Origin: a virus
Reading direction: 5' to 3' (one strand)
Length of the DNA stretch: 21,930 bases
IMG/VR virus record: IMGVR_UViG_3300046804_002662
Location: 1 to 21,930 of that record
The notes beneath the pieces are model-generated. The model saw only the letters and a program-made list of their open reading frames with translations. It was not told the origin of the DNA and did no database searches. The position numbers and the translations under genes were made by a program. Below, piece after piece: positions 2,657-21,930 of this stretch. The first letter of the stretch is position 1; each line of letters starts with the position of its first letter.

Positions 2657-5600
2657 ATGGCAGGTAATAGAATAGATATGGATCTTAGCGTACAGGATCG
2701 AAGCAATACAATTAAAGACCGTACAAATGATGCTAAGAAATTAAATGAGCAACTAGAACGCGCACAAAATTTAATGCGCAGTACAGGTACTCAAACTGGT
2801 AATCAAGCAATGCGTAGGGCTGGTTATGCTGGCCAAGTAGAAGATTATAATATTGCTCATGGTGTTGCCGGTGCTGGTGGAGCAAGCGCCAGAGATTTTG
2901 CTGATCAATCTCGCGGATTGGGCCCACTTGTACGATTATATGCAAACTGGGCAGCTAACGTTTTTGCTGTAAGTGCCGCGTTTAATGCCTTGCGTGAAGC
3001 CATGTCTACAGACATGTTATTACGTGGACTAGATCAATTAGGTGCACAAAGCGGCGTAGCTTTAGGCGGATTAGCAAAACAATTTGCTGCTGTAACAGAT
3101 GGAGCAGTTAGTTTAAGATTAGCTTCTGAAATGACTGCCAAGGCTATGAGTAGTGGTATGAGTCCTGAGCAATTTATTGAATTAGGTAAAGTTGCTAAAG
3201 GAGCCAGTCAAGCTCTTGGTATTAACATGGATGATGCAGTTAGCAGACTAACTCGCGGTATAGTTAAATTAGAACCAGAATTATTAGACGAACTTGGTAT
3301 ATTTACAAAACTAGATAAAGCAGTTACTGATTATGCTCGTCAAATTGGCAAAAGTGAAAATCAATTAAGCGATTTTGAGCGTCGTCAGGCATTTGCTAAC
3401 GCAGTATTAAAAGAAGGTAAGGATAAGTTTGGAGCAATTGCACAAGAAGGAAATCCTTACGATCAGTTGTTAGCAAGTTTAAAAAATGTAGCACAAGATC
3501 TACTAAGTATTGTAAATACAGTTATAGGTCCAATAGCGCGATTCTTAGCTAATAATACAGAATTACTGGGTGTAGCTATAGCAGGTGCAGTAATTAAGAT
3601 TACAAACCAAGCTATTCCAGCATTAGTTAATTGGCAGATTGAAATGAAAAATGCTGCTAAAGTAGCTGCTCAACGTGCTAATGAAATTAGTGAGGTATTT
3701 GCTAAATCTGATTGGGATAGGGCAGTTGCTAAAACAGTAGTACCAGAAATCCGCAAACAACTAAATGCGGCAGAAAAGGAACTTAGAGCAGAGCAGCTAA
3801 GGCTGCTAGATATGGGCAAGAGTGACGTTAAAAATAGACAGTGGTTTAAAGAACTAACGACTCAAGAAGAACTAAGTGGTCGCGCACAGTTAAATGTTAA
3901 TAAGCAAATTACTAAAGAAGTTGACAAACAGACTGATTCACAAAAAGCTTTTAATGCACAACTAAGTTCTGTAGTAGAAAAACAAAAAATTGTAGCAAAA
4001 TTACGTCAAGATGAAGCTAGAGAACTAGCAAAATTACAGGAATCAGGACAATTTGAAACTACTGGGTTACGTGATATTGCTCAAACAGCAAAAAACGTAA
4101 AAGCAGCTAAATTAGATTTATTAAGTAATGTATATGATTTAGTTTACAGTAAAGGATTTACTGGTGGTCTTGGAGAATTTTATAAGGAAGTAGACGCTAG
4201 AAAAGATTTTGATAGATTAGATCGTTTAGCTACAAAATTAAAAGGAACATTTTTAGGTATTGCTGCACAAATTGGATTAGCTTTTCAAGCTGCTAGCAAA
4301 TACTTAATTTATGTAGAAATAGCTGTTGCCGCATTTTATGCTTTAGATGCCGTATTTAGTACAAATAAAAAACAAGTTAAAGCATTAGACGATGCAATTA
4401 GTAGCATGGAAGAAACTACTAAAACTGCTAGTATGACTGCAGAAAAATTTATTGGTATCTTAAATGCAGAAAGTATAGTAGCAGTATCAAATAACTTTAA
4501 CGGGATGACTAGTAGTGTTAAAGCTACTGCTAAAGCATTCGGTGAATTTGAGAAATACAGCAGTACATTTAATAAAATAAAAGAATTTTATTCTGGTAGT
4601 CCACTTAACGCAGGTACTATGGGTGGTGCAGTAGGTGCAGCCATTGGATCAGCATTTGGTGGTATAGGTGCTGTACCTGGATCAGTAGTAGGTTTAGGAG
4701 TTGGTACACTATTAGGAGGAATTGTTGGCGCAGTTACTGAAAAAGAGCAAAATAAAGTAGCTGAAGAAATATCAGATTTATTAACACAGGCTATACAAAG
4801 CGCTCCGGAAGGTGATATTAGAAATTCCCTTGAAGAAAAGCTTGGTGCGGCTCTTGGAACAACTACACTAAATAAAAAGAGTATTAAAGATATAGTACAA
4901 AGCAGTGATGACTTAACCTCACTATTAAAAAATATTGGAAAAGTACTTGAGCAAACCGATAAAATTTTAGAGCAATCTAAGATTTTAACAAAAAATATTG
5001 AAGAGACTACAAAAAAGCAGGTACAAAGTTATCAAACTTTGGCAAATAGTGTAAGCGATCAAAGCCCTTTAACTACATTTTTAATGGATACATTAAAGCG
5101 CACTCAGGCATTAACAGCTGGTTTTGGCGACGTTCGTGCCGCAGTAGCAGCATTAGATAGTTTAGCACAAACAGGCCCAACATTTGCTGCTATGACTACA
5201 GAGCAAGCTAATAATTTAAATCAAATTATTGCACAGTATAAAGTATTGCGCGAAGAAGAATCAGATTTAAGAAAATCTATTAAAGATAGAAATGAAGAAT
5301 TTGAAAAAACCAATAAGAAAACGGTTGATCAGCTAAAGAAAGATCTAGACAAATTAGGTATAGAAGAAGGATCCTCAGTATATCAAGCCACTTTAAGCAA
5401 AAGCGAAAAACAAGCGCTAGCAGCACAAAAAGCGGATAAAACTAGGATAGAAGAAATTCAAAAACTTATTCTAGGTTTAAGTGAATCAACTGCTAATATT
5501 GCTCAAGATACTGCTGCAAAAACATTAGACATAATGTTAAAAGGCTATGAATTACAAATTAGAAAAATGGGCATCGAAGCTTCAAAAACTATGACCGCTT

Positions 5601-7930
5601 TAGCTGGAGCATCTGTTCGTGGTATAGATATAGATACTAAGTTAAATATTGAAGCAATTAAAGTAGAACAAGAATTAACTAACATTAACAGAGAATTAGT
5701 AATAGCTATGGAATTTGGCAGAATTGCTACTGAGAAGTTGACAGACGCATATATGCTAACATACTATAAAGAAGCTGAGGCAAAGGCTAGAGGCAGAAAT
5801 GATGCAGAAGAAGCAACTAGATTATCTAATTTAATAACAGGTATTGAACGTAAGCAAAAAACATATGGTCCATCTGGTACTGCTGTTGATCCTACTACTG
5901 GCCAAGTTGTAGAAGGCCAAGATATGCAACAACGTATGCGTGATGCTATGAAAAAAGGCGGTCCTAGAGCTGTTGCAGATTTAATTAAGGAAACAGGTGC
6001 TACTGCTTATCAAACTATGCTTCCTGTATTTTTAAATGCTAGTGTTGTTCAAACTCAAGCTAATTTAAGAATAGCTGCTGAAAAACTTAAGGGAGAAGTA
6101 CAAAAAGAAGCTTATAAAGTTGCTGATGAATTAAAAGTTGGTGAATCTGAGTATAGAAAATTAACAGCAGCAATGGGAGCATTTTCAACTGGATTAAGTA
6201 GTGGCTACTCTCAACTGTTGAAAAATATCAGTGAGGATGCACGAGATAGACTAGATATACAAAAAATAACTGGTCAAATAAGAGTACAGCAAGCTATTAT
6301 AGATAGTCCAGAAGCAACAAAAGATGCCAAAGATAAAGCCAAAGCAGCAATTGACCAATTAAAGGTAGAAGAAGATAGACTTACTGCAGAACAAAAATTA
6401 GTAAGAACTTATAGAGATAAAAGTACTGCTATACAAATTAATATAGACAAAACACGAGCTTTAAGTGATGCCGCACAGGCCGCTATAGAAGCTCAAATGA
6501 AGAACATGGATCAGTCAACTGCTGCAGGTATGCAGGAAGCAGAAGAAAAGAGACAAGAAAGCTTTAGAAAGAGAATGGCAGCAAATTCTCAAATTTATCA
6601 ATATCAAACTCAAATTATTAGAGATACAGTTAGTGAGCTAGAATCAGAGTTAAAAGGGCTATCAGATGAAGGAGCTATAAGTGCCTTCATGGGTGGAGAA
6701 AAAGGAAAACAATTAGGTCAACTAAAAACTGTTTTAGAAGGTCAAGATTTTATACAAAATATTATTCAAGGCATGGAGAAGGCTAGAGAAGCAGCCGAAA
6801 AACTATCTGCACAGATTAGAATTACAGCACTAAGACAAGACGAGCTAATAGAAAAATCTCGCGGACAACGTGAAATAGAAATGCAACGAGCTGATTTAAA
6901 CAGACAGTTTTTTGCAGATGAACTAAACAGGACAAAAAGTAGAATTGGTACAATGGCTAGTTTAGGATTATTAACTGACCAAGAGATAGCTGATGCCGAA
7001 AGAAACGATCAAAGAGCAAGAATACGATTAGAATTGGAAGGCAGATTAGCCAGTTTTGCTGAGCAAAAAATACGTGCTGAAGAAGAGTACCAAAAAGTAC
7101 TAGCTATGGAACGCACCAGATTAGGCTTAGCAAATGACCAGATGCCAGATTCAGAACTCGCAAGACTAGCTTTAGCTCGTAAAACTCGGACGCAAACAAT
7201 GGCTGATGATGCTTCAGCAGCTGCTAGAACAGCTGGTAAAGCTAATGAGGACTTCTTAACAGAACAAGCAAACCTATCTGAAAGCCAAAAGAAATATGCG
7301 GCTGTATTTAAAAATTCTTTTGATAGTATGGCTAATGCAATAGTTGAATTTAGTAAAACCGGCAAGTTTTCATTTAAAGACTTTGTAAATAGTATGCTAC
7401 AAGATATACTAAGATTAGAAGCGCAAATGTTAACACAAAGTATTTATAAAAGCTTTATGGGTTCATTCCTATCTAATAGTGCCGGCGATGGCAGCGCTTT
7501 AGTTAGTTTGGCTAAATCAATATTTGGTTTTGCTAATGGTGGATATGCTAACTTAGGTATGCCTATTAAAAAGTATGCTATGGGCGGTATAATAGATCGT
7601 CCTACGTTATTTACTTATGCAAATGGTACGAACAAAGCTGACATGGCACTTGTTGGTGAAGGAAAATACTCAGAAGCTGTGGTGCCGCTACCAGACGGTA
7701 AAACAATACCAGTTACTATGAATGGTAGAAGCGGAGAAGTTTATGTAACAGTAAACAACAACACAAATCAACAAGCTAAAGTTAGTGAAAGTAAAGATAG
7801 CCGTGGCAATCGCCGTATTGAAGTTACTGTTGGTGATATGGTTGCTGGAGAAATTTCTCGTACTGGTAGCACGCTACAACAAACTTTTAGCAATACTTAT
7901 GGTATTGGTCAAATGGTTGGAAGGAGATAA
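2657..7930 (+). CDS. Tail tape measure protein
   Basis: This 1757-aa protein sets tail length and probably helps DNA cross the cell envelope. A charged N-terminal helix (about 1-45) is followed by a conserved-looking helical tape-measure core (about 130-300, including SRLTRGIVKLEPELLDELG). Hydrophobic segments lie at about 92-113, 283-323 and 530-567, and a Gly-zipper stretch at about 653-694 could insert in membrane. Long coiled-coil regions fill the middle. The C-terminus resembles the lambda tape-measure C-terminal domain (KTGKFSFKDFVNSMLQ near 1565). The tape-measure hallmark VGEGKYSEAVVPLPDG is near 1664-1680. Start: ATG 2657 with GGAG (2648-2651). It is the first gene after the promoter at 2573. 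At about 0.15 nm per residue the tail would be roughly 260 nm, less if the C-terminus is cleaved as in lambda gpH. Expected partners are the G/GT chaperones. Confidence 0.93.
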   Translation: MAGNRIDMDLSVQDRSNTIKDRTNDAKKLNEQLERAQNLMRSTGTQTGNQAMRRAGYAGQVEDYNIAHGVAGAGGASARDFADQSRGLGPLVRLYANWAANVFAVSAAFNALREAMSTDMLLRGLDQLGAQSGVALGGLAKQFAAVTDGAVSLRLASEMTAKAMSSGMSPEQFIELGKVAKGASQALGINMDDAVSRLTRGIVKLEPELLDELGIFTKLDKAVTDYARQIGKSENQLSDFERRQAFANAVLKEGKDKFGAIAQEGNPYDQLLASLKNVAQDLLSIVNTVIGPIARFLANNTELLGVAIAGAVIKITNQAIPALVNWQIEMKNAAKVAAQRANEISEVFAKSDWDRAVAKTVVPEIRKQLNAAEKELRAEQLRLLDMGKSDVKNRQWFKELTTQEELSGRAQLNVNKQITKEVDKQTDSQKAFNAQLSSVVEKQKIVAKLRQDEARELAKLQESGQFETTGLRDIAQTAKNVKAAKLDLLSNVYDLVYSKGFTGGLGEFYKEVDARKDFDRLDRLATKLKGTFLGIAAQIGLAFQAASKYLIYVEIAVAAFYALDAVFSTNKKQVKALDDAISSMEETTKTASMTAEKFIGILNAESIVAVSNNFNGMTSSVKATAKAFGEFEKYSSTFNKIKEFYSGSPLNAGTMGGAVGAAIGSAFGGIGAVPGSVVGLGVGTLLGGIVGAVTEKEQNKVAEEISDLLTQAIQSAPEGDIRNSLEEKLGAALGTTTLNKKSIKDIVQSSDDLTSLLKNIGKVLEQTDKILEQSKILTKNIEETTKKQVQSYQTLANSVSDQSPLTTFLMDTLKRTQALTAGFGDVRAAVAALDSLAQTGPTFAAMTTEQANNLNQIIAQYKVLREEESDLRKSIKDRNEEFEKTNKKTVDQLKKDLDKLGIEEGSSVYQATLSKSEKQALAAQKADKTRIEEIQKLILGLSESTANIAQDTAAKTLDIMLKGYELQIRKMGIEASKTMTALAGASVRGIDIDTKLNIEAIKVEQELTNINRELVIAMEFGRIATEKLTDAYMLTYYKEAEAKARGRNDAEEATRLSNLITGIERKQKTYGPSGTAVDPTTGQVVEGQDMQQRMRDAMKKGGPRAVADLIKETGATAYQTMLPVFLNASVVQTQANLRIAAEKLKGEVQKEAYKVADELKVGESEYRKLTAAMGAFSTGLSSGYSQLLKNISEDARDRLDIQKITGQIRVQQAIIDSPEATKDAKDKAKAAIDQLKVEEDRLTAEQKLVRTYRDKSTAIQINIDKTRALSDAAQAAIEAQMKNMDQSTAAGMQEAEEKRQESFRKRMAANSQIYQYQTQIIRDTVSELESELKGLSDEGAISAFMGGEKGKQLGQLKTVLEGQDFIQNIIQGMEKAREAAEKLSAQIRITALRQDELIEKSRGQREIEMQRADLNRQFFADELNRTKSRIGTMASLGLLTDQEIADAERNDQRARIRLELEGRLASFAEQKIRAEEEYQKVLAMERTRLGLANDQMPDSELARLALARKTRTQTMADDASAAARTAGKANEDFLTEQANLSESQKKYAAVFKNSFDSMANAIVEFSKTGKFSFKDFVNSMLQDILRLEAQMLTQSIYKSFMGSFLSNSAGDGSALVSLAKSIFGFANGGYANLGMPIKKYAMGGIIDRPTLFTYANGTNKADMALVGEGKYSEAVVPLPDGKTIPVTMNGRSGEVYVTVNNNTNQQAKVSESKDSRGNRRIEVTVGDMVAGEISRTGSTLQQTFSNTYGIGQMVGRR

Positions 7931-7932
7931 TT

Positions 7933-8295
7933 ATGGCTATACCTACATGGCCAGCAACGCTGCCACAAAGTCCACAAAAAGACTTTACCGAAAATGTAGG
8001 TATTAATATAATTCGTTCTAGTATGGACAGTGGTCCCGCAAAGCAAAGATTACGTAGTCGTAGACCTACGACTATGACTCTTAGTTTTATAATGACCACT
8101 GCTCAAACACAAACACTAGAGTCATTTATTAATACTGATTTATTAGGTGTAAAAAGATTTAACTTCAAGCATCCTAGATTAGGTACAACTGTTGAATGTA
8201 GACTAGTCCCACAAGGAGAAGGACAATTTTTTTCACTACAATATCGTGCACCTGATTATTGGCAAACTAACTTACAATTTGAAATATTACCATGA
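7933..8295 (+). CDS. Minor tail protein, lambda M-like
   Basis: This 120-aa protein begins MAIPTWPATLPQSPQ and contains a basic stretch around SGPAKQRLRSRRP, followed by beta-rich sequence and a C-terminal PDYWQTNLQFEILP. This pattern, together with position directly after the tape measure and before an L-like protein, matches the gpM-type minor tail protein of the tail tip. The start is ATG 7933 with a full Shine-Dalgarno AAGGAGA (7921-7927), which lies within the last codons of the tape measure gene; only two bases separate the genes. It overlaps the next gene by four bases (ATGA at 8292-8295). It should bind the distal tape measure end and the L/J hub; that role is inferred from lambda. 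Confidence 0.82.
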   Translation: MAIPTWPATLPQSPQKDFTENVGINIIRSSMDSGPAKQRLRSRRPTTMTLSFIMTTAQTQTLESFINTDLLGVKRFNFKHPRLGTTVECRLVPQGEGQFFSLQYRAPDYWQTNLQFEILP

Positions 8296-8876
8296 GTAGA
8301 ATAAACAGTTTATCTGCTGCCGCTATTAAGGCTATGTTTTCTTCTGAAACAGAAGAACAATTAATAACACTTATTACTATAGATGACCCAGTTGATGGTA
8401 CACATCCTATTAGATTAGCTGATACTTTTACTAGCAGATTAACTGGTTCTACTATTGGTTGGACTACACACGAATTAGAAACTAAAGAAGGATATACTAC
8501 TGATAGCGAAGTAATTTATGGCGTTAGTAGAACAGTTGGTGGACAATTACAAGAATTTATATTTTTACCGCTACAAATTGGCCTACCACCAGAGCAAGAA
8601 ACTGGTGTAGGCAGCTTATCGTTGACACTTAATTATGTTACTCCTCAAGCAATAACATTAATAAGAAAATATTTAACACAACCTGTAAAAGTTACAATTG
8701 AAATGGTGTTAGGTAGCTCACCTACTGTTGTAGAGGCTAGTTTTAGCAATTTCTATATAACTAGTGCAACATATAATGCACAGTCTATAAATTTACAACT
8801 AGATATGATCAGTTTTAGCAGAGAGCCGTTTCCTAGTTTTAATTTTACACCTAGTTATTTTCCGGGGTTATTCTAA
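8292..8876 (+). CDS. Minor tail protein, DUF1833 type (lambda L-like position)
   Basis: This 194-aa, beta-rich protein has DUF1833-like features: an N-terminal helix and ITLITIDDP strand, a central SLSLTLNYVTPQ-type segment, and a C-terminus ending SYFPGLF. It takes the place of lambda gpL between M and K, so it is probably a ring protein of the tail tip joining tube and hub. Lambda gpL holds an iron-sulfur cluster through C-terminal cysteines; this protein has no cysteine at all, so it cannot carry one. The start ATG overlaps the previous TGA (ATGA). No separate Shine-Dalgarno is visible, which suggests translational coupling. Its stop overlaps the next start by one base (TAATG). Confidence 0.82.
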   Translation: MSRINSLSAAAIKAMFSSETEEQLITLITIDDPVDGTHPIRLADTFTSRLTGSTIGWTTHELETKEGYTTDSEVIYGVSRTVGGQLQEFIFLPLQIGLPPEQETGVGSLSLTLNYVTPQAITLIRKYLTQPVKVTIEMVLGSSPTVVEASFSNFYITSATYNAQSINLQLDMISFSREPFPSFNFTPSYFPGLF

Positions 8877-11800
8877 TGAATTATGATCGCTATATAGGAT
8901 TACCATACAAAGAAAATGGTAGAGATGAACTAGGTGTAGATTGCTGGGGATTAGCCAGATTATTTTACAAACAAGAATTAGGTATCGAACTACCTAGTTA
9001 TACAGAATTATATAGTGGCAGCTATGACCATAGAGTTGTAGCTGCCATTAACTATTATAAAGATACCTGGACTAGTGTGGAAACACCACAACCAGGTGAT
9101 TTATGCCTATTTAATATATTAGGTGAGCCAAGTCATGTAGGCATTTATATAGATAATGATAAATTTTTACATAGTCGCGATGGTAAAGATAGTGTAATAG
9201 AAAGTATAAACAATGCCAAGTGGTTTAATAGACTACAAGGTTTTTACCGTTATACTGAAAAATTTCAGTTACCAGTAGTTGGTATGCCACATCCATTGCA
9301 GTGGAATACTGTAGTGGAAACTGCTATGGAAGGTGCAAACGCACAAGCATTTGCCCAATACTTATCAGCAAAGTATGGTTTAAGTGCTGGTCAAGAAAAA
9401 CGTTTAATACTAATGGTGGATGGTGTACCTCTACCACAAGACTGTTGGGCAGAAACTTATTTTACAAAGGATAGTGTAGTTAATTACCGTGTTGTAGCGC
9501 AAGGAAGAAATGGGTTACGAACTTTGGCAATGATTGCTATAACAATAATAGCTTATCAATACGGAGGACCACTAGCGCTTGAATTATTTGGTGAGACTGC
9601 TGTTGCTACCTTAGAAGGTTTTGATATAGCCTATACAACGGTCTCAGCCGGCGCAAAGATAGCTACTACTCTAGCTATACAATTTGCAGGCATGGCACTA
9701 GTAAATGCAGCCTTCCCAGTTAGACCACCAAAAGATCCTGGACAAGCAATACCAACAAATATGTTTGCTGGTACTCAGAACCAAGCCAGCCCGTTTGGAG
9801 CAATTCCAGTTGTATTAGGCCGTCAACGAGTAACAGGATTACTTGGGGCGTCACCATTTTTAGAAACACTAGAAACTACCAGCTTATTAAGACTAATAGT
9901 TATTTGGGGTTTTGGACCATTATATGTAGATCGCAGCACACTTAGTGTAGGCAGCACACCTATTAGTAAATTGATTGCTCAGGGTAGTACTACAGAAGTT
10001 TATTACACACTAGAAGGCAATAGCGGTGAAACTGCTAGCGAAACAAACGTATTTAATAGTTATTATCCTACTGATGTACAACAAAAACCTTCTAGTCCTG
10101 TTGAATTAACTAATACAACAGGTAGTCCTCAATGGACTTGGTTTACATTTAATCAACCAGCAGACGAAATTAAAATAGCTTTTAATTTTCCAGATGGTTT
10201 ACGCAAGATTAACACTAAAAGTGGTGATACTGCCTCCACTAGCGTTAAATTAGCTATAGCTATAGGTAAAGAAAATGTACTTGGCAATGCAACTTCACTG
10301 TCTACCGGCACAGATCCAAATACTGCTAATTTAATAAAAATATTTAGTCTAGCTGCTAATACAAGCATTAATCTAGGAAGTATCCCAACAGGTTATTACA
10401 GAAAAAATATCGTAGCACTAGCACCTAGTGGTACAGTTTATGCATTTAGTGGTAGTATTAGTGATAACAATGGTAGTAATCCTAGTTCTACAATTTCAGA
10501 AGATTTATATTATACTAGCTATACTAGCTTATTAATTAAAACAACATTACCAACTGGTGAAGATGGGTATTTATGGGAGCCCAAAGTACCTAATAATTAT
10601 TTGAAATTGGCTAGCTATGTACAAAGCAGTAGTGGTATTATATCCTATCAAGACTTACGCAGTGCCTATGGCTATACTTTTACAGGGTTAGCAGTCAATA
10701 GCTATACTGGTAATACTGTAACTATAACTAGCGGATCAGTAAGCTCTAGTATAAGTACTACAGAAACTGAACGATTAATATTTTTAACTGGTACAAGCGG
10801 ATTAACTGCAGATAGCACTTTTAGTGGCGTTGTTAATGTAACTAGTAGTGCTTGGAAAAATACTTTTTTAAAGCAAAATGCAGTATGGAAAACTACTAAC
10901 GGTACAGCTCCGGTAATAGATAAGAATGTGACACTAACACAAACCGTTAATTTTCCTTATACCGGATATTATACTATAGATTTGGCTGCTGACAATTGGG
11001 CAGCACTAGGTATTACGGGTGTTGATTCAATAAGTGCACAAGCTACCTGGGATACTAATGTAAATGAATTTTCCACACCAGTTAATAGTGTTAGACAAGA
11101 GCTATATATTACTGCAGGTAGCAAAACTATAACATTAGAATGTACAAATCGTGAAACTGGTAATAATAGTGTAACAGATTCAAACTGTGGCGTTGCATTA
11201 CGAATCAGTTTTATTTGGGATGGTATAAATAATGTTAATCCTAATAGTATTATTAGGACGATAACTATTGATGAAAATAAAAAAGACGGCTTTAATTTTA
11301 TATATCCAGTAGAAGGCCCACTAGAAAGAACAACCTATACTATTGGTGTAAAACGTTTAACTACAAGTATAGCTGAAGATGGTGATTGGACAAACGTTTG
11401 GCGAGCCTACTTATACACTGCAACAGCGTATGATCATAATACTACGCCAATGGTACCACTACCACAACGTACGTGGACTAACAGTGGCACAACACAAACT
11501 GATCACAGAAACTTAGCTAGAACTGCAGTAGTTGTACAAAGCACAAGTAAAGTTAATGGTACTATCGAAGGCGTAAATGCTCTTGTAACTACTATTGCAT
11601 TAGATTATGATAGTAGTATAGATACATCTACAACAGTTACAGCCGGAAGTTTTGTATTAGGTAGAGAATATAAAATAACTACTGTAGGTGGTACAAATTT
11701 TACCACTATTGGAGCAACAGCTAATACTATAGGATCTAAATTTATTGCTACAAATACAGGTACTGGTAATGGCACAGGTACGGCTTTACCTACTGGATGG

Positions 11801-13609
11801 AGAGAGCAACCTACAAATAATCCAGCAAGCTTATTTAGATATGTACTCCAACATACAGCTAATGCTTTTCCTGTAGCAGACGTTGATATTAACCTAACCG
11901 CACTTCAAGAGTGGCATACTTTTTGTAATACTACGGATTCGGTAACTGGTAGACCAAAATTATATTACAATAATGTAATAAATAGCACGCAAAACCTAAT
12001 GGAGTTACTAAAGGATATTTGTGCTGCTGGTATGGCTAGTCCAACATTTGTTAACGGTCAGTGGAGTGTAGTTGTAGATAAGATCAGACCGTATACCGTA
12101 CAACACTTTACACCACATAATAGCTGGGGTTTTGAAAGCACTAAAGCACTTGTACGAATACCACACGCATTTAGAATAGCATTTCCTAATGAAGCTAAAG
12201 CATATCAAGCAGATGAAGTAATTGTTTATGATTGGGGCTATGGTACTACAGCAAGTGGTAGTATAAAACGCGCAGAGCAATTTGAAACTATACAATTTCC
12301 AGGTGTAACAGATGTTGATCAGGTAAAGTTTTTTGCTAAGTGGCATTTTGCACAACTTCATAAGCGACCAGAAATTTATACACTAAACGCTGATTTTGAA
12401 TACTTAGTGTGTAGTCGTGGAGACAAAGTAAAAGTTACTCATGACTTACCTATGTGGGGAACAGGCAGTGCAAGAATTAAATCTATAAGCGGTACTGATA
12501 TTATACTAACAGAAGCAATATTATTTGATAGTACAAAAACATATCAGATGCTAATTAGACGCAATCCTACTACTGGTGGAAGCTTACAGGTACCTAGTAC
12601 AACGGTAACAGTTCAACCACTGAGTGGTGGAACTGTAGCAACAACCAGTAATTATTACGATACAGTTAGATGCACAGGATCATTATCTGGCGTAGAGGTA
12701 GATAACTTAGTAATGCTAGGTGAAACTAATAAAATTAGTCAGGATCTAGTAATTTTGACCATAGAACCAATGGATAATACTAGTGCTAGAATGACACTAT
12801 GTGATTATGCAGAAGATATTTATACTACTAATATTGATAGTTTAAATACAACTTTTAATAGTAATATAACCTTTAGTAATATTGATATAGTAAAAAATAC
12901 TATATCCGAAACACCTGATATTGTCAGCGTCAATGCCGGCAACATTATCAGTGAACAAATTTCTACTGGTAATTTTACAAATACACTTATAATTACATTT
13001 GCAAGTCCTCCTAGTAAAGTAAATAATGCTACTAGAATACAAATAGATTTAATAGAATCTAATGCATTGTTCGACCCTAATCTGCCAACAAACGCTTATT
13101 ACGTAGAAAAGGACGCTAGTAGTATAACTATTACTGGACTTAAAACTAATGGTTTGTACAAAATCAGAGCTAGATATACTAATGCTACAACTAGCATATT
13201 TGGGCCTTGGACTACAGAAGGTTTAATACAAGTAACTGGAAAAACTACAAATTCGTTTACACCAAATGATGTTATGATAACACTACAAGGAACAAATATT
13301 ATTGTTAAGCCTATTCTAAGCACTGGAAACAGTGAGCCTAGTGATCATAAAACCTATGAGTTTAGACTATACAGAAGTACTGGTACTGGAGATTTTTGGA
13401 CTACTACTTGGGATAGCACTAATATGCTAAAAGCTCAAAGCAGGACCCAAGCTGTATTTAACTTGCTAGATTTACCAAGTACTAGTGGTAATAGACGTAT
13501 TAGTCAAACTGGAATAAATTATAGAGTAGCTTGCAGAGCCCTTAATAACACAGATAGTTATAGCTCAACTAGTGTTTTAGGTAGTATATTAATTAAGACG
13601 ATTCAGTAA
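8876..13609 (+). CDS. K-I-J fusion: NlpC/P60 peptidase, gpI-like region and tail hub (tip attachment) protein
   Basis: This 1577-aa polypeptide joins three proteins that lambda makes separately. Residues 1-125 are an NlpC/P60 cysteine peptidase with Cys23 (VDCWGLA), His87 (PSHVGIY) and His99 (KFLHS) as the likely catalytic triad; it would cut peptidoglycan during entry. Residues about 131-283 resemble gpI: a small domain followed by hydrophobic segments (about 216-240 and 259-280). From about 284 the J-type hub begins (SPFGAIPVVLGRQRVTG). It continues to about 1330 and includes the phage-tail_3-like region PASLFRYVLQHTANAF through QWSVVVDK. A 48-residue module (923-970) is inserted in the hub. 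Two fibronectin-III-like domains (from about 1345) end the protein. Start: ATG in a TAATG overlap. J normally continues into a central fibre, which here is the next gene. Confidence 0.87.
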   Translation: MNYDRYIGLPYKENGRDELGVDCWGLARLFYKQELGIELPSYTELYSGSYDHRVVAAINYYKDTWTSVETPQPGDLCLFNILGEPSHVGIYIDNDKFLHSRDGKDSVIESINNAKWFNRLQGFYRYTEKFQLPVVGMPHPLQWNTVVETAMEGANAQAFAQYLSAKYGLSAGQEKRLILMVDGVPLPQDCWAETYFTKDSVVNYRVVAQGRNGLRTLAMIAITIIAYQYGGPLALELFGETAVATLEGFDIAYTTVSAGAKIATTLAIQFAGMALVNAAFPVRPPKDPGQAIPTNMFAGTQNQASPFGAIPVVLGRQRVTGLLGASPFLETLETTSLLRLIVIWGFGPLYVDRSTLSVGSTPISKLIAQGSTTEVYYTLEGNSGETASETNVFNSYYPTDVQQKPSSPVELTNTTGSPQWTWFTFNQPADEIKIAFNFPDGLRKINTKSGDTASTSVKLAIAIGKENVLGNATSLSTGTDPNTANLIKIFSLAANTSINLGSIPTGYYRKNIVALAPSGTVYAFSGSISDNNGSNPSSTISEDLYYTSYTSLLIKTTLPTGEDGYLWEPKVPNNYLKLASYVQSSSGIISYQDLRSAYGYTFTGLAVNSYTGNTVTITSGSVSSSISTTETERLIFLTGTSGLTADSTFSGVVNVTSSAWKNTFLKQNAVWKTTNGTAPVIDKNVTLTQTVNFPYTGYYTIDLAADNWAALGITGVDSISAQATWDTNVNEFSTPVNSVRQELYITAGSKTITLECTNRETGNNSVTDSNCGVALRISFIWDGINNVNPNSIIRTITIDENKKDGFNFIYPVEGPLERTTYTIGVKRLTTSIAEDGDWTNVWRAYLYTATAYDHNTTPMVPLPQRTWTNSGTTQTDHRNLARTAVVVQSTSKVNGTIEGVNALVTTIALDYDSSIDTSTTVTAGSFVLGREYKITTVGGTNFTTIGATANTIGSKFIATNTGTGNGTGTALPTGWREQPTNNPASLFRYVLQHTANAFPVADVDINLTALQEWHTFCNTTDSVTGRPKLYYNNVINSTQNLMELLKDICAAGMASPTFVNGQWSVVVDKIRPYTVQHFTPHNSWGFESTKALVRIPHAFRIAFPNEAKAYQADEVIVYDWGYGTTASGSIKRAEQFETIQFPGVTDVDQVKFFAKWHFAQLHKRPEIYTLNADFEYLVCSRGDKVKVTHDLPMWGTGSARIKSISGTDIILTEAILFDSTKTYQMLIRRNPTTGGSLQVPSTTVTVQPLSGGTVATTSNYYDTVRCTGSLSGVEVDNLVMLGETNKISQDLVILTIEPMDNTSARMTLCDYAEDIYTTNIDSLNTTFNSNITFSNIDIVKNTISETPDIVSVNAGNIISEQISTGNFTNTLIITFASPPSKVNNATRIQIDLIESNALFDPNLPTNAYYVEKDASSITITGLKTNGLYKIRARYTNATTSIFGPWTTEGLIQVTGKTTNSFTPNDVMITLQGTNIIVKPILSTGNSEPSDHKTYEFRLYRSTGTGDFWTTTWDSTNMLKAQSRTQAVFNLLDLPSTSGNRRISQTGINYRVACRALNNTDSYSSTSVLGSILIKTIQ
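11642..11785 (+). other. Small phage module inserted in the J hub (encodes residues 923-970)
   Basis: The encoded segment starts AGSFVLGREYKITTVGG, continues TNFTTIGATANTIGSKF and ends in a Gly/Thr-rich tail. I recall this kind of short module, with the pattern GSFV-Y-I-VG-T-FT-IGA, as recurring in otherwise unrelated phage structural proteins. Here it interrupts hub sequence between TIALDYDSSID and GWREQPTNNPA. The DNA shows no flanking repeats that I can see. Confidence 0.6.
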
Positions 13610-16642: not shown

Positions 16643-16977
16643 TGGCTACAACATATGGCCTACAATTATTTGATACTGCAGGATTACTAGAACTGGATTC
16701 TAGTTCTAGTATAAATGCTGGAGTATTTGTTAGAAGTATAACAATACCTTCAACTGGTAACAGTACAATACTTTTTAATGGACAGGCACAAGGATCTTTT
16801 GGTACTCTGCCTAATCTAGTTAACAGAACAATATTTTGGATAACGTTATTAAATGGAGACCAGGATATTAGACTATATACTAGTCCAGAATCATATCCTG
16901 GCATACAATATTCTCAGTTAAGTAGTTCAGATTTAGGAACAAGGAGAACAAGTACTATACTTGTTTTTGTAAGATAA
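16642..16977 (+). CDS. Small tail protein with YGLQ N-terminal motif
   Basis: This 111-aa protein is predicted to be all beta, without cysteines, signal peptide or membrane segment. It begins MATTYGLQLFDTAGLLELD, and the next gene begins with the related MAYGLQSFNNANEYLLDSD, so the two proteins share an N-terminal motif. The motif appears again inside the next protein (TYGMQMFNAAGLCTFDTG). I recall such N-termini in small proteins beside tail fibres of various phages, but no function can be assigned. It starts in a TAATG overlap with the central fibre gene and ends in a TAATG overlap with the giant gene. Plausible roles are a tip decoration protein or an adaptor that attaches the next protein to the tail. 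The assignment to the tail is by context. Confidence 0.72.
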   Translation: MATTYGLQLFDTAGLLELDSSSSINAGVFVRSITIPSTGNSTILFNGQAQGSFGTLPNLVNRTIFWITLLNGDQDIRLYTSPESYPGIQYSQLSSSDLGTRRTSTILVFVR

Positions 16978-19900
16978 TGGCATACGGATTACAAAGTTTT
17001 AATAACGCTAACGAATATTTATTAGATAGCGACTACCCTAAACCGTGGTTTCATGCAAAAGCTACCCTATATGGGCCTACAACAACAGGCCCATATACTG
17101 TTAAGTTTAGAGAAGGTGACGGTAGTGGTGGCTCTACACAATTAGAGTTTAGAGCTTATACACTAAACTATACAGCACCTAACCACGGCGTTAATCAAAA
17201 AACCGGATTTGCATTAATAACCATGCCAAATACTCAAATTTGGTATGCATGTGATAATTATTGGCAATCTGGAATTAATGGTGCTTTTACAGTCTATGCA
17301 CTAGTTCCTAGTACATATAATAATCCAGATGGTAGTTATAAAGAAGGCAGTAGTGACATACCAGAAGTATATCTATTTTGTCACGAACATATTAATTTAA
17401 CTAGTAGCAGTGGTACCTATGGTATGCAGATGTTTAATGCTGCAGGCCTATGCACGTTTGATACAGGTCAAAAAATATTTAGACCTGTTGAAGGACAACT
17501 ACTATACCACCCATATCCTAGTTTACGTGCAAGTATAGCTACAGCTAATCCTATTATTGATACAGTATTTCCATATGTGCCTGGTGGTACACCTACTAGT
17601 TTTACTTTTGGTTATACTTTTTCAAAACCAATATTTTATTTACCTAAACTATACTCTACTATTAGTGCACCAGCAGTTGGTGGCAGAGCTAATCAGTATC
17701 AGGTGCAAGTAGGAGATCCTTATTTTATTTTTGAGGCAATGTCATTTTATAGACGTACTAGTGCTACACAAGTTGCTATAAAGCCTTATCTTAGAAATAT
17801 TATATTTGAACAGGAATCCATAGGAACATTTCAATATTCTGTAGATGGTGCTGGCCAAGGATTTATTATTATTTCTGATGGTGATAGATACCCTGTTACC
17901 AGTGGTGGGACTTTTCCCTCTGCTACCTATAATATTACCGCTACTCCTAGCTCGCCCAGTGAAGGCACACCATTTACTATAACTATAAGTACTACTAATG
18001 TTCCAGCTGGTACAACATTTAATTATATGATGACAGGTAGTACACTACTATCTATAGATCTTAATGTACCACTAACAGGCACAATTACTATTGGTTCAAA
18101 TGGACAAGCTACAATTACTCCTATAACAGCACTAATAGATGAATTTGATGATACAGAGCAAGTTGATTTTGTTCTTAAAGATAGCGTAACAGACGAAATA
18201 GTTAAAATATTTACTTTTACAATTACAAATACTCCTGCCCCAGCTGCTAGCTATGTATTGTCAAAAACTCCAGCTACTGGAGCTATTAGTGAAGGTAGCA
18301 GTTTTACTATTAGAGTGGATACTACATATGTTGCCGTAGGTACTCAGCTAGCTTATACTGTTAGCGGATTGGATAGTTTAGATGGTAGTAATGTAGCTAC
18401 TAGTGGAACATTTCCTGCCATACAGGGCACATTTCAGAGTGGTTATACAGAGAAAACGTTTTATACTACAGCAGATAATAGAACAGACGGCCAAAAAACT
18501 TTTACACTTACACTAACCGCAACTGGTCAAACAATACAAATAGTTATTAATGACACTAGCCAGTTTCCTACACAGGGAACTATGGTTAACCTAACAACCA
18601 CTACTCCTAGCAGAGACGAGGGACAAACAGCTACTATTAGAGGCGATTGGGATTTCAATCAGTACACTTACGATAATAGGACCTTTAAATTACAAATAGC
18701 TAGCGGTAGTACAGCTAATAGTAGTGATGCAACAATTAGTCCAAGTGGATTTGTAACTCTTACTACCGTTTATAGTGGTGGAGAAGTAGTATCTATTTTT
18801 AGAAATTGGTCAGTTAGCATAGCTAATGACTTAACTACTGAAACAGGTAGCCCAGAAACATTATTGCTTGAATTAGTAGACGCTAGTGGCAGTGTTTATG
18901 ATACACAAAGTATTACAATAAATGATACTAGTCAAACTCCTGCACCTACAGTATCACTATATAGTGCAAGCCCTAGTGTTGATAGTGGAACTGGTTTAAT
19001 ATACTTAAATGAAACTACCACTAAAACTTTAAGCTTAACAGTTACATTAGATTTTACAGTAGCCAATGTACCAGTTTACTGGAAAACAAATGGTAGCGCA
19101 AACTTTACTAGTGCAGATGTAGATACTAGTTTAAGTGGAACTATTTACACTGTTGTAGGACAAGTACAAAGAACACTACCAGATATTACAATTAAAACCG
19201 ATTATACAACTGAAATTACAGCAGAAAGTTTTACTATAGGATTTTATAGTGATAGTAGTTACACTACACTATTATATCAAAGCCCAACAGTAAGTGTTAA
19301 TGACACTAGTCAAACACCAACATTAAATATATCCAATGTTTCAATAACGCCTAATCCAGTAGATGAGGGAAATAGTACTAGTATTGTATTTACTATACAA
19401 GATAGCGTAGTTCAAAATATTTATTTTAAAATAGTAGGTGGAGCTGGTTTTAGTGCAGGAGACGTATCTAGCTATACACCTGCAACCAATACTTTTCAAA
19501 GTGCTACCGGGGCTGGAGCACAACGTACAATTACAGTAACACTAAATGCCGATGCTACAACAGAGGGCACAGAGCAATTTTATATTTATTTCTTTACTGC
19601 AGGTACTTGGAATAGTGGCAGCCCTGTAGACTCTAATCGTTGGGGGCTAATAGGACCAATAAATGTTAACGATACTAGTACAACCCCTATAGTTAGAACA
19701 TTTACCCGCAGCGTTAGCGAAGTAAATGAGGGTGGTAGTTTTAGTATAACATTTACAACTAACCAGGCTGGTAGCTTTAATTATAGTATTCTTGGAGTAA
19801 GTAGTGCAGATATAGGTGGTGCTAGCTTAACTGGTACAGTTAGTAATGGCACAGTATTAAACTATACAACTAGTTCTGATAGTACAACTGAAGGCGACGA

Positions 19901-21930
19901 AACTTTTACTATTAGATTAGATGACTATACCAACGTAAATACTAGTGTAATAATTAGAGATACTAGTTTAACACCAGCACCTAGTGCAGCATCAATATCA
20001 CTAAATACTCTTGGACAAAGTTTAAGTGGTGGTTATATAAGCAGTGGAGTCTATTGGGTAACATGGACCCTAAGCAGTCAAACTACTATAATCTTTAGTA
20101 CTGAACATGAGCTACCTATAGGTGCAACTGGTGTAGATACTAGTATAGCTGTGTATAATAGCAGTGGAATATTGCAGCACACATCTGGAGCAGGTGATGA
20201 CGATGGTATAGATAATCGCGGCGTTAATTATAGTAGTAGATTATCGCTAACACTAGCAGCTGGAACTTACTATGGTGCTATAGGAGTTTACTCTGGATCC
20301 TATACTTTTAGTAATTATTGGACAGTTTCAGGGCTTTCTGCAACAACCCTAAACAATAATATTAGTAATATACGTGTTAGTTTATGGACTGGTACCCCTC
20401 AGCCACAATTGCAAGGTGTTAGTGCGCCTAGTAGCGTTAATGAAGGTGATACCGCCACATTTAGTTTTACACTATTAGATACCACAGACAGAACACTATA
20501 CTGGAGAATTGTTGGTACTAATACTAGTGCCGGTGATTTTACCAGCAGTACTAGTGGCAGTTGGGCTAACCAATGGCCTAGAAGTTCACAAAATCTTAGT
20601 GTTAGTATAGCAGCAGACTCTACAACTGAGTCTACTGCAGAAAGCTTTAAGTGGCAACTATCAACTACTAGTAATTTTAGCGATATATTTTACGATACAG
20701 CCAGTTCAGCAACTAGTACCACTATAAATGATACCAGTCAAACACCAGTGCCTTCCTGGAGTTTTGGTACACCACCCACAGAAATACATGAAGGTGTTAC
20801 ATATGGTATAGCCTTTTTTGCAAGTAATTGGTCTGGAAATACAGCATACTTTTACTTAGTTGGTCCTAGTAGTGGCACAAATGCTAGCGGTGAAGTTAGC
20901 TTACTAACTAGCAGTACGTATGTTAATTCTAACTATATAGACGTGCAAGTAAGCTTTACAGCAACGCAAGACTATAACACAGAAGCTGACGAATTTTTTA
21001 GAATAGAAGCTAGAAACAGTGCAGGAACAGTTTTAGCTACTAGTAGTAATATTAAAATTATTGCTAAAGGTGCTCCTAATTATTACTTTGGAGCTATTCC
21101 AAATCCAATGAATGAGGGCACTACTTATAGTGTAACATTTACAGCTGAAAATATTAGAAACACTACCTTTACATTTCAAACAATAGCTCCTACAAGCGGA
21201 ACAAATGCTAGTGCTGAGGTAAGTATTAGCCCCTCAAGTTGGACTTCATCTAGTAGCAGTGATAGTAGTAGCGTTACGCTTAGCATTACCCCAACAGCAG
21301 ATGGTGTAATGGAATTAGATGAATATTTTAGATTTGGTGCCTATATTGGTGCGTCACTTGCCACAGGCACAGGAAATATTAGAATACCAGGAGATGGAGC
21401 AGCACCTAGTGGAACATTTAGTGTTAGCCCCAGTACCCATACTGGTGTAGCAAATATTTATGGTGATTGGTCTATTAGCGGTAATCCTACCCCGTCTGTA
21501 AGAATTGACAGCGATCAAGGCTATCAGGCAACTAGCTTAGGTACACAAGGAAGCAGTTTATTAGAAACTAACGTAGCTCAAACTACTACTTATACACTTA
21601 CAGCAACTAATGCATTTGGTACACTTACTATTAATAGTACTTCAACAGTGCCAGGTGTTAGTGCTACCCTAAGTGCAAGTCCTAGTACAATTACTGCTGG
21701 TCAATCTAGTACACTAAGCTATACAACTACAAATGCTACATATGCAAACATTAATAATGGTGTAGGCGGCATTACTATAGGAAGTGGCAGTGTTGTTGTA
21801 TATCCTACTTCAACTACAACTTATACCCTTAGTGCCTTTAATGCTCAAAATAGTGGCAGCGCTCAAGCAACGGTTACAGTAAATCCTGCTAGTGGTACCT
21901 ACTTAAGTCAATACTGTAGTGGTTATACAC
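16977..21930 (+). CDS. Giant Calx-beta-like repeat tail protein (partial, runs off the window)
   Basis: This frame opens at ATG 16977 (TAATG overlap) and has no stop through 21930, giving at least 1651 residues. Residues 1-175 hold two YG-(L/M)-Q motifs; about 175-315 form an unrecognised beta domain. From about 325, domains of roughly 97-125 residues repeat. They begin with an EG motif (for example SEVNEGGSFSITF), carry a TTEGDETFTIRLDD-type acidic segment and end in a DTSQTP linker (525, 649, 775, 898, 994, 1251). These are Calx-beta-like and may bind calcium. A different domain at about 1020-1130 (TSIAVYNSSG, GAGDDDGIDN, LAAGTYYGAI) resembles PPC domains. Ig-like domains follow, the last with STITAGQSSTLSYTTTNAT, and the window ends in GTYLSQYCSGYT. 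Most likely a host-recognition or adhesion fibre at the tail tip. No enzymatic motif is visible. Confidence 0.82.
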   Translation, partial: MAYGLQSFNNANEYLLDSDYPKPWFHAKATLYGPTTTGPYTVKFREGDGSGGSTQLEFRAYTLNYTAPNHGVNQKTGFALITMPNTQIWYACDNYWQSGINGAFTVYALVPSTYNNPDGSYKEGSSDIPEVYLFCHEHINLTSSSGTYGMQMFNAAGLCTFDTGQKIFRPVEGQLLYHPYPSLRASIATANPIIDTVFPYVPGGTPTSFTFGYTFSKPIFYLPKLYSTISAPAVGGRANQYQVQVGDPYFIFEAMSFYRRTSATQVAIKPYLRNIIFEQESIGTFQYSVDGAGQGFIIISDGDRYPVTSGGTFPSATYNITATPSSPSEGTPFTITISTTNVPAGTTFNYMMTGSTLLSIDLNVPLTGTITIGSNGQATITPITALIDEFDDTEQVDFVLKDSVTDEIVKIFTFTITNTPAPAASYVLSKTPATGAISEGSSFTIRVDTTYVAVGTQLAYTVSGLDSLDGSNVATSGTFPAIQGTFQSGYTEKTFYTTADNRTDGQKTFTLTLTATGQTIQIVINDTSQFPTQGTMVNLTTTTPSRDEGQTATIRGDWDFNQYTYDNRTFKLQIASGSTANSSDATISPSGFVTLTTVYSGGEVVSIFRNWSVSIANDLTTETGSPETLLLELVDASGSVYDTQSITINDTSQTPAPTVSLYSASPSVDSGTGLIYLNETTTKTLSLTVTLDFTVANVPVYWKTNGSANFTSADVDTSLSGTIYTVVGQVQRTLPDITIKTDYTTEITAESFTIGFYSDSSYTTLLYQSPTVSVNDTSQTPTLNISNVSITPNPVDEGNSTSIVFTIQDSVVQNIYFKIVGGAGFSAGDVSSYTPATNTFQSATGAGAQRTITVTLNADATTEGTEQFYIYFFTAGTWNSGSPVDSNRWGLIGPINVNDTSTTPIVRTFTRSVSEVNEGGSFSITFTTNQAGSFNYSILGVSSADIGGASLTGTVSNGTVLNYTTSSDSTTEGDETFTIRLDDYTNVNTSVIIRDTSLTPAPSAASISLNTLGQSLSGGYISSGVYWVTWTLSSQTTIIFSTEHELPIGATGVDTSIAVYNSSGILQHTSGAGDDDGIDNRGVNYSSRLSLTLAAGTYYGAIGVYSGSYTFSNYWTVSGLSATTLNNNISNIRVSLWTGTPQPQLQGVSAPSSVNEGDTATFSFTLLDTTDRTLYWRIVGTNTSAGDFTSSTSGSWANQWPRSSQNLSVSIAADSTTESTAESFKWQLSTTSNFSDIFYDTASSATSTTINDTSQTPVPSWSFGTPPTEIHEGVTYGIAFFASNWSGNTAYFYLVGPSSGTNASGEVSLLTSSTYVNSNYIDVQVSFTATQDYNTEADEFFRIEARNSAGTVLATSSNIKIIAKGAPNYYFGAIPNPMNEGTTYSVTFTAENIRNTTFTFQTIAPTSGTNASAEVSISPSSWTSSSSSDSSSVTLSITPTADGVMELDEYFRFGAYIGASLATGTGNIRIPGDGAAPSGTFSVSPSTHTGVANIYGDWSISGNPTPSVRIDSDQGYQATSLGTQGSSLLETNVAQTTTYTLTATNAFGTLTINSTSTVPGVSATLSASPSTITAGQSSTLSYTTTNATYANINNGVGGITIGSGSVVVYPTSTTTYTLSAFNAQNSGSAQATVTVNPASGTYLSQYCSGYT
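18549..20746 (+). repeat. Six dispersed 20-base linker repeats between the Calx-beta-like domains
   Basis: Copies at 18549, 18921, 19299, 19668, 19956 and 20727 encode (I/V)NDTSQTP or close variants, all in the same frame. The best matches are AATGATACTAGTCAAACTCC (18921) and AATGACACTAGTCAAACACC (19299). Start-to-start spacings are 372, 378, 369, 288 and 771 bases, so domains of about 96-126 residues alternate with these linkers. The 771-base interval holds an extra, different domain. The regions between linkers are much more diverged. Confidence 0.8.

Follow-up and report, generated by a model that had tools for sequence, protein, structure and literature searches.

A single open reading frame joins NlpC/P60 peptidase, gpI-like and J hub parts at the predicted tail tip of a group of phages

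We analyzed a 21,930-nucleotide stretch of viral DNA (IMG/VR record IMGVR_UViG_3300046804_002662, positions 1 to 21,930; the window), which carries a siphophage tail module, and found that one gene of this module encodes counterparts of the three lambda tail-tip proteins K, I and J in a single polypeptide. The frame runs from the ATG at 8876 to the stop codon at 13607-13609 without interruption (1577 aa), and its ATG overlaps the stop codon of the upstream gene (TAATG). Along the chain, an NlpC/P60 peptidase domain is followed by a beta-grasp domain, two hydrophobic helices, a plug segment and the J hub (Table 1). The original prediction, made from the sequence alone, had proposed such a fusion, and Pfam, PHROG_31 and hhalign matches together with signs of selective maintenance bear it out. 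The fused K-I-J frame is shared by many phages, most of them uncultured, that together make up a large group.

The N-terminal part matches the Pfam family PF00877 over residues 8-123 (E 4.5e-18; score 65.6 bits, cut-off 23), and, as for K in lambda, the NlpC/P60 domain is encoded between L and I. Structures were modeled for residues 1-445 (predicted template modeling score, pTM, 0.39) and 131-1330 (predicted local distance difference test score, pLDDT, 75; pTM 0.56), both as monomers. The first of these, which follows the proposal in the original prediction to model the N-terminal part, returned the NlpC domain, with pLDDT mostly >90, as well as the beta-grasp domain and the two helices. The nearest solved relative of the NlpC domain by sequence is E. 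coli Spr/MepS (1.7e-8), and its nearest folds are LytE (Z 15.6, root-mean-square deviation, rmsd, 1.7 over 109) and MepS (Z 15.4, rmsd 2.2 over 111 residues); the NlpC domain of diffocin gave Z 13.1 in the structure comparison. The Cys-His-His triad, C23, H87 and H99, lies at the positions originally proposed and is invariant in 51/51 aligned fused proteins. From its sequence, this part is expected to be a peptidase that cuts the peptidoglycan of the bacterial wall. An N-terminal JAB domain (PF14464) was not found in the window record, where NlpC starts at the N-terminus, and was absent from 17 of the 18 records tested, window included, some of which may be fragments; lambda was positive.

In lambda, K and I are long-established assembly genes, and the NlpC part might accordingly act in tail-tip assembly and not in wall opening, the fusion serving only to fix the assembly order and stoichiometry. 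Deletion of the RcGTA peptidase, which leads to empty heads without tails, points in the same direction (PMC7296036). Nevertheless, we consider a pure assembly role quite improbable, since the triad is intact in all 51 aligned proteins, the nearest solved relatives are murein endopeptidases and the RcGTA peptidase itself degrades peptidoglycan (PMC7296036).

The region that follows NlpC is homologous to gpI, as indicated jointly by PHROG_31, hhalign and the model. The I region of the window and lambda gpI match overlapping PHROG_31 columns (131-293, 1.1e-11, and 132-276, 3.5e-8, respectively), and an I-region profile aligns to lambda gpI with an hhalign E of 2.6e-6 (probability 88.7). The Pfam family PF06805 (Lambda_tail_I) was not matched by the window, L012 or L016, but a relative with separate NlpC, L013, passes it (26.6 bits against 23.8). 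Against PDB sequences, the I-region profile found no gpI chain and the longer profile A5 only a T1 tail assembly protein at E 0.24. Residues 131-206 were modeled as a beta-grasp domain with middling ubiquitin/SUMO-type matches (Z ~7) and a weak ThiS profile match (E 0.13). The hydrophobic segments noticed originally in this region correspond to two modeled helices, H1 (211-238) and H2 (258-279). Of all 19-mers in the chain, 262-280, which overlaps H2, is the most hydrophobic, and 217-235, within H1, is the other of the top two; the corresponding part of lambda gpI likewise contains the top two 19-mers of that protein. The gpI-like part had been thought to end at 283. However, residues 283-340 align with the C-terminal (plug) part of lambda gpI ('ASPFGAIPVVLGRQRV' versus 'QGNVLPVLYGEMRV'; plug segment aligned against lambda gpI 'NVLPVLYGEMRVGS'), so that the gpI-like part extends past 283 and through the plug, with the J hub starting near 341. 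The layout is thus that of gpI, two hydrophobic helices and then a plug segment.

The J assignment rests on PHROG_31, 'central tail fiber J' (E 1.7e-53), while the Pfam family PF13550 stayed below its cut-off (21 bits against 23). The hub profile also matches the T1 fiber (2.9e-23) and Ur-lambda J (2.2e-8). The best structural match of the 131-1330 model was Sf11 gp14 (9occ; Z 22.5, rmsd 3.6 over 481), followed by lambda J in the open state (8xcg; Z 22.2, rmsd 11.4 over 535) and the virion chains of RcGTA (6tba; Z 21.3) and R4C (Z 21.0). From residue 341 onward, the chain is a J hub of the lambda/T1 type. An insert in the hub at ~10760-11220 (residues ~630-780) took the form of a beta-sandwich in the model and weakly matched carbohydrate-binding modules (such as CBM36 and CBM35, Z ~7).

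Relatives were collected from viral contigs with an I-anchored search (best 80 of 198 confirmed loci kept) and an NlpC-anchored search (best 80 of at least 580 loci kept, not included in the 247-sequence count below), two sets that share contigs; a search for split-type I-J loci added the best 80 of 214 plus 50 loci from bacterial genomes. All of these sets are ranked samples and do not give frequencies. NlpC and I were in one frame in 80/80 of the best I-anchored and in 80/80 of the best NlpC-anchored loci, and the search for further fused K-I-J proteins, as suggested originally, found them in viral contigs and in the cultured Curvibacter phage P26059A. Among 247 classified sequences (same-contig duplicates included), 112 were fused and 130 had NlpC separate; four lacked an NlpC match, including lambda, whose K was missed by the profile, and one lacked an I match. 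The split relatives are more distant than the fused ones, and in 129 of 130 a single frame contains both the I region and the J core, indicating that the I-J fusion is ordinary and that the attachment of K to it is the extra step. The lone exception, L226 (a Roseibium sp. contig), has an I frame that stops after 335 aa without a J core and could represent a pseudogene, a split J or an I gene in its own right. In L014 (Stenotrophomonas phage SOVA965), an unannotated NlpC-like open reading frame (ORF) at 4875-5207 lacks the usual domain start from the listed start, and may be degenerate or start elsewhere. A search of genome contigs for close prophage relatives gave 13 pattern matches, none of which was confirmed.

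These data also bear on the simplest objection, that a sequencing or assembly error joined separate genes. Separate genes do occur in distant relatives (130/247), but J is in a different frame from NlpC in 120 of the 130 split relatives, so most of them would need more than a lost stop codon to be joined. The repeated fused loci of both searches and the isolated P26059A genome refute an error for the fused clade, and we regard it as practically excluded. The original prediction had named relatives with separate K, I and J as the sign of such an error: K is indeed separate in the more distant relatives, but this does not point to an error, and I and J share a frame in all but one of them.

Comparison of the window with its relative L002 yielded ratios of nonsynonymous to synonymous substitution rates (dN/dS) of 0.074 for NlpC, 0.079 for the junction (residues 118-145), 0.079 for the beta-grasp domain, 0.212 for the hydrophobic segment, 0.075 for the plug and 0.069-0.085 for J, values that are approximate because dS was 0.9 to 1.4. 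Purifying selection thus acts across NlpC, the junction, the beta-grasp domain and the plug.

For the history of the fusion, we built a quick LG+G4 tree of 164 representatives (56 fused, 108 split) after removal of near-duplicates, with 2 of 242 sequences dropped as too short and L014, L015 and L017 flagged for long branches. The fused sequences form a clade of 51 with a Shimodaira-Hasegawa-like approximate likelihood ratio test (SH-aLRT) support of 99, a group of four (99; L138, L167, L187 and L222, of which L187 and L222 are contigs of Phycisphaerales metagenome-assembled genomes) and one singleton, L179, and the tree requires three changes between the fused and split states. With L179 in the data set, a single origin is rejected (p 0.0027); with L179 removed, it is not (p 0.55). 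Because the rejection hinges on this singleton, we claim only one large clade and perhaps, in the four, a second group; the fusion in L179 could be an event of its own or an error.

Within the main fused clade, J is cut downstream at three places in the tree: in L072, L057 and L088 (near residue 467), in L051 (near 644), and in L078 and L053 (near 650 and near 878, respectively). The ORF that follows takes up the J similarity, while NlpC and I stay joined. This suggests that K-I is a conserved unit more than I-J is, a reading from a limited set, as the stop lies inside the contig for 37 of the 55 fused representatives that remain when the window is set aside. At L072 (5994-7400 and 7410-13181), and likewise in L057, L059, L088 and L093, NlpC, I and the hub start make up ~468 aa and the next gene encodes the rest of J, so that the J hub of such loci is predicted to consist of two polypeptides.

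Internal re-initiation, which would give a separate I-J protein, was considered and rejected: Met137 is not conserved, and a start codon preceded by a Shine-Dalgarno-like site within codons 112-174 was absent in 55 of the 56 fused representatives and present in only one. The test is weak, because the start of the window gene itself has no such site; by hand count, 34/56 have a Shine-Dalgarno-like start at or before the domain start.

We consider it fairly probable that these proteins form a lambda-type tip in which K (NlpC without JAB) is joined to the I-J hub, so that three tethered peptidases would be freed when the plug opens. Lambda itself provides the frame for this reading. The original prediction had taken both K and I as not clearly retained in the mature lambda virion. 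For I this needs correction: published virion mass spectrometry and cryo-EM identify gpI as the trimeric plug of the tip (PMC10721106, PMC11101478). Mass spectrometry did not detect gpK in lambda virions (PMC10721106). The C-terminal part of gpI plugs the channel below the tape measure, the N-terminal part is unresolved, and the two predicted transmembrane helices of gpI are expected to enter the outer membrane on opening; the enzyme that opens the peptidoglycan was called unidentified (PMC11101478). For the separate peptidase of RcGTA and R4C, a location in the lumen close to the tape measure and release into the periplasm have been proposed, in RcGTA probably as one monomer (PMC7296036, PMC10276861). 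By analogy, the NlpC part of the fused protein would be retained in the virion; the permanent position at the tip and the altered opening of peptidoglycan put forward in the original prediction are likewise inferences. As the J hub is expected from its homologues to be a trimer, there would be three peptidases per tip, so that peptidase, plug and hub would stand at 1:1:1. As long as the virion is closed, the plug part would block the channel below the tape measure; receptor binding would open the hub, upon which the two helices would move to and enter the outer membrane. NlpC, tethered ~85 residues upstream of helix 1, would thereby be delivered to the periplasm, where it could cut peptide cross-links and make a hole for the tape measure and the DNA. 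The absence of JAB, the proposed gpI-processing enzyme, supports this reading, as do the persistent single frame with its intact triad, purifying selection, a K-I link that outlasts cuts in J, the near-absence of internal starts, the closeness of NlpC to MepS and the hub-NlpC precedent in diffocin.

Several points weigh against it. Virion data were found for no member, and the main text of the P26059A paper contains neither 'mass spectrometry' nor 'proteom'. Because gpK was absent from lambda virions (PMC10721106), a function of K limited to assembly is possible, and such a role is real in RcGTA, where deletion of the peptidase stops tail formation (PMC7296036). Moreover, the lumen density of RcGTA fits one peptidase monomer and not three (PMC7296036), and the channel may not have room for three copies each of the NlpC and beta-grasp domains. 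The placement of the domains is tentative, because both models are monomers, with pTM 0.39 and 0.56.

Alternatively, the fusion may be cut during assembly, so that the virion keeps only the plug and J. The part lost would be NlpC by itself or NlpC together with the beta-grasp domain, and the cut might fall, for instance, in the Gly-rich stretch VVAQGRNG that follows the beta-grasp domain. This would agree with the proposal of Iyer et al. that TAPI is processed at the C-terminal Gly of the ubiquitin-like domain (PMC1779556), and with the missing gpK signal from lambda virions (PMC10721106). On the other hand, JAB, the processing enzyme proposed, is missing in 17/18 records (window included, with possible fragments among them), and purifying selection and an unbroken K-I link, though compatible with cleavage, are unexpected for a link that is discarded. 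On balance, we judge cleavage unlikely.

The tethered-peptidase reading can be taken further, though what follows is tentative and rather doubtful. Opening of the plug might pull the three NlpC domains through the outer membrane together with the hairpin of the two helices, which would make membrane entry and wall cutting one mechanical act; hairpin and tape measure might then be exchanged as a cassette for crossing the envelope, separately from the part that binds the receptor, and, by extension, wall opening in lambda might depend on K beside the N-terminus of gpI.

Separately, the hydrophobic segment stood out in its divergence. The window and IMGVR_UViG_3300006641_000462 (L001/L019) are 96-100% identical over 7600-13600 except in this segment (9400-9800), where amino acid identity is 0.55-0.57 and dS 0.77, compared to 0.03-0.22 in the other regions measured. 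The body of the tape measure gene has also diverged between the two (0.48-0.65 in bins 3601 to 7400). Hairpin and tape measure identities were correlated (partial r 0.41, naive p 0.002, controlled for NlpC, beta-grasp and plug) over 53 pairs that are not independent, with L048-L051, L070-L092 and L057-L059 as clear counterexamples. Hairpin and tape measure may be a co-exchanged envelope-crossing module.

Table 1 Features of the fused gene and its neighbors in the window
Feature	Coordinates	Strand	Basis
Major tail protein	151-1704
Tail assembly chaperone genes	1758-2177 and 2180-2536
Tape measure protein, 1757 aa	2657..7930	+	Pfam PF09718, PHROG_3779
Tail protein, lambda M position	7933..8295	+	PHROG_384 'virion structural protein'; M comparison by position only
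Upstream minor tail protein, lambda L position	8292..8876	+	PHROG_396
Fused NlpC/P60 - gpI-like - J hub protein, 1577 aa	8876..13609	+	Single open frame
NlpC/P60 (C40) peptidase domain, residues 1-126, without JAB	8876..9253	+	Pfam, model, MepS/LytE fold
Catalytic Cys23 codon	8942..8944	+	Invariant 51/51
Catalytic His87 codon	9134..9136	+	Invariant 51/51
Third triad residue, His99 codon	9170..9172	+	Invariant 51/51
K-I junction, residues ~127-140	9254..9295	+	Internal-start scan; dN/dS
gpI-like ubiquitin-like beta-grasp domain, residues 131-206	9266..9493	+	Model, ubiquitin/SUMO-type matches, PHROG_31
Hydrophobic helix H1, residues 211-238	9506..9589	+	Model; hydrophobicity
Hydrophobic helix H2, residues 258-279	9647..9712	+	Model; hydrophobicity
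gpI C-terminal/plug segment, residues 283-340	9722..9895	+	Lambda gpI alignment; low pLDDT in 445-aa model
J hub region (residues 341-1330), containing large inserts	9896..12865	+	Model of 131-1330, profile
Most conserved J part, residues 974-1514	11795..13417	+	PHROG_31 E 1.7e-53

Elsewhere in the tail module, the sequence GGGAAAC at 2144-2150 lies in -1 frameshift register near the end of the first chaperone ORF, and a -1 slip there would lead into the frame of the second, an arrangement like that of the lambda G / G-T chaperone pair. The heptamer also occurs in L019, L024, L026 and L023; in L012 and L037, a search of the first 3500 bases found none. Downstream of the fused gene, further ORFs have a fiber-like look, and a very long ORF with repeated 'NDTSQTP'-like strings (16977-21930) runs past the end of the record.

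Fusions between parts of this system have been known for some time. Iyer et al. (2006) described TAPI-TAPJ fusions in some prophages and TAPI fused to TAPK or JAB in others, NlpC being mostly without JAB in the TAPI-fusion operons (PMC1779556). Those fusions are pairwise, whereas the window joins all three parts in one chain. PHROG_28576 (399 aa) is matched by both lambda K (13-204) and lambda I (187-393) and therefore reads as a K-I fusion, with no room for J. In a Foldseek search with the 1-445 model, A0A6J7WL04, 'Tip attachment protein J' of an uncultured Caudovirales phage, matched with 46% identity over 422 columns; the match most likely covers NlpC and I, and this protein is probably also a triple fusion. 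We found no published description of the triple fusion in the literature searched, with most subscription journals outside the reach of that search. Pairwise I-J and I-K fusions were published as early as 2006, and the triple fusion had already been deposited.

Among the systems with structural data, RcGTA and R4C place a tail peptidase (g14) beside a J-like hub, the megatron, the N-terminus of which is thought to form a membrane pore, but their peptidase is a separate gene, and the RcGTA density is that of a single monomer (PMC7296036, PMC10276861). In Shigella phage Sf11, gp14 (9occ) has a weak I-like profile match near its N-terminus, residues 1-80 being unmodeled, and differs from the window in that its NlpC-like ORF is separate and unannotated. 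This NlpC/P60-like frame (L248, ~12937-13476, minus strand; E 2.9e-14) lies upstream of gp14 at a locus where a short plus-strand gene was annotated instead. Because it could not be reported against the deposited annotation, the Sf11 mass spectrometry is not usable for NlpC. Diffocin CD1368, a solved hub-NlpC fusion, and the Tal proteins of Gram-positive systems have a peptidoglycan hydrolase and the hub on one chain, as in the window (PMC11329794, PMC7291167), but there the hydrolase is C-terminal of the hub and the target Gram-positive, whereas the NlpC domain of the window is N-terminal.

The closest comparisons are lambda and P26059A. Lambda K, I and J provide the corresponding parts in the same gene order, including a gpI with two hydrophobic helices and a plug, but as three genes, with a K that carries JAB and that was not found in virions (PMC10721106). 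The Curvibacter phage P26059A (host Curvibacter sp. IMCC26059), by contrast, encodes a 'tail component' (ASJ79179.1; KY981271) with the same NlpC - I - J order in one 1644-aa frame. Annotated only as a tail component and mentioned in the main text of the P26059A paper neither under that term nor as 'NlpC', this protein is ~36% identical to that of the window, falls inside the same supported clade and has a similar gene order by annotation. As P26059A is in culture, the triple fusion is of practical use: if the N-terminal part were present in its virion, the K-type peptidase would be a virion component of the tip with known stoichiometry, and with K covalently part of plug and hub the question of how lambda opens the wall would become answerable.

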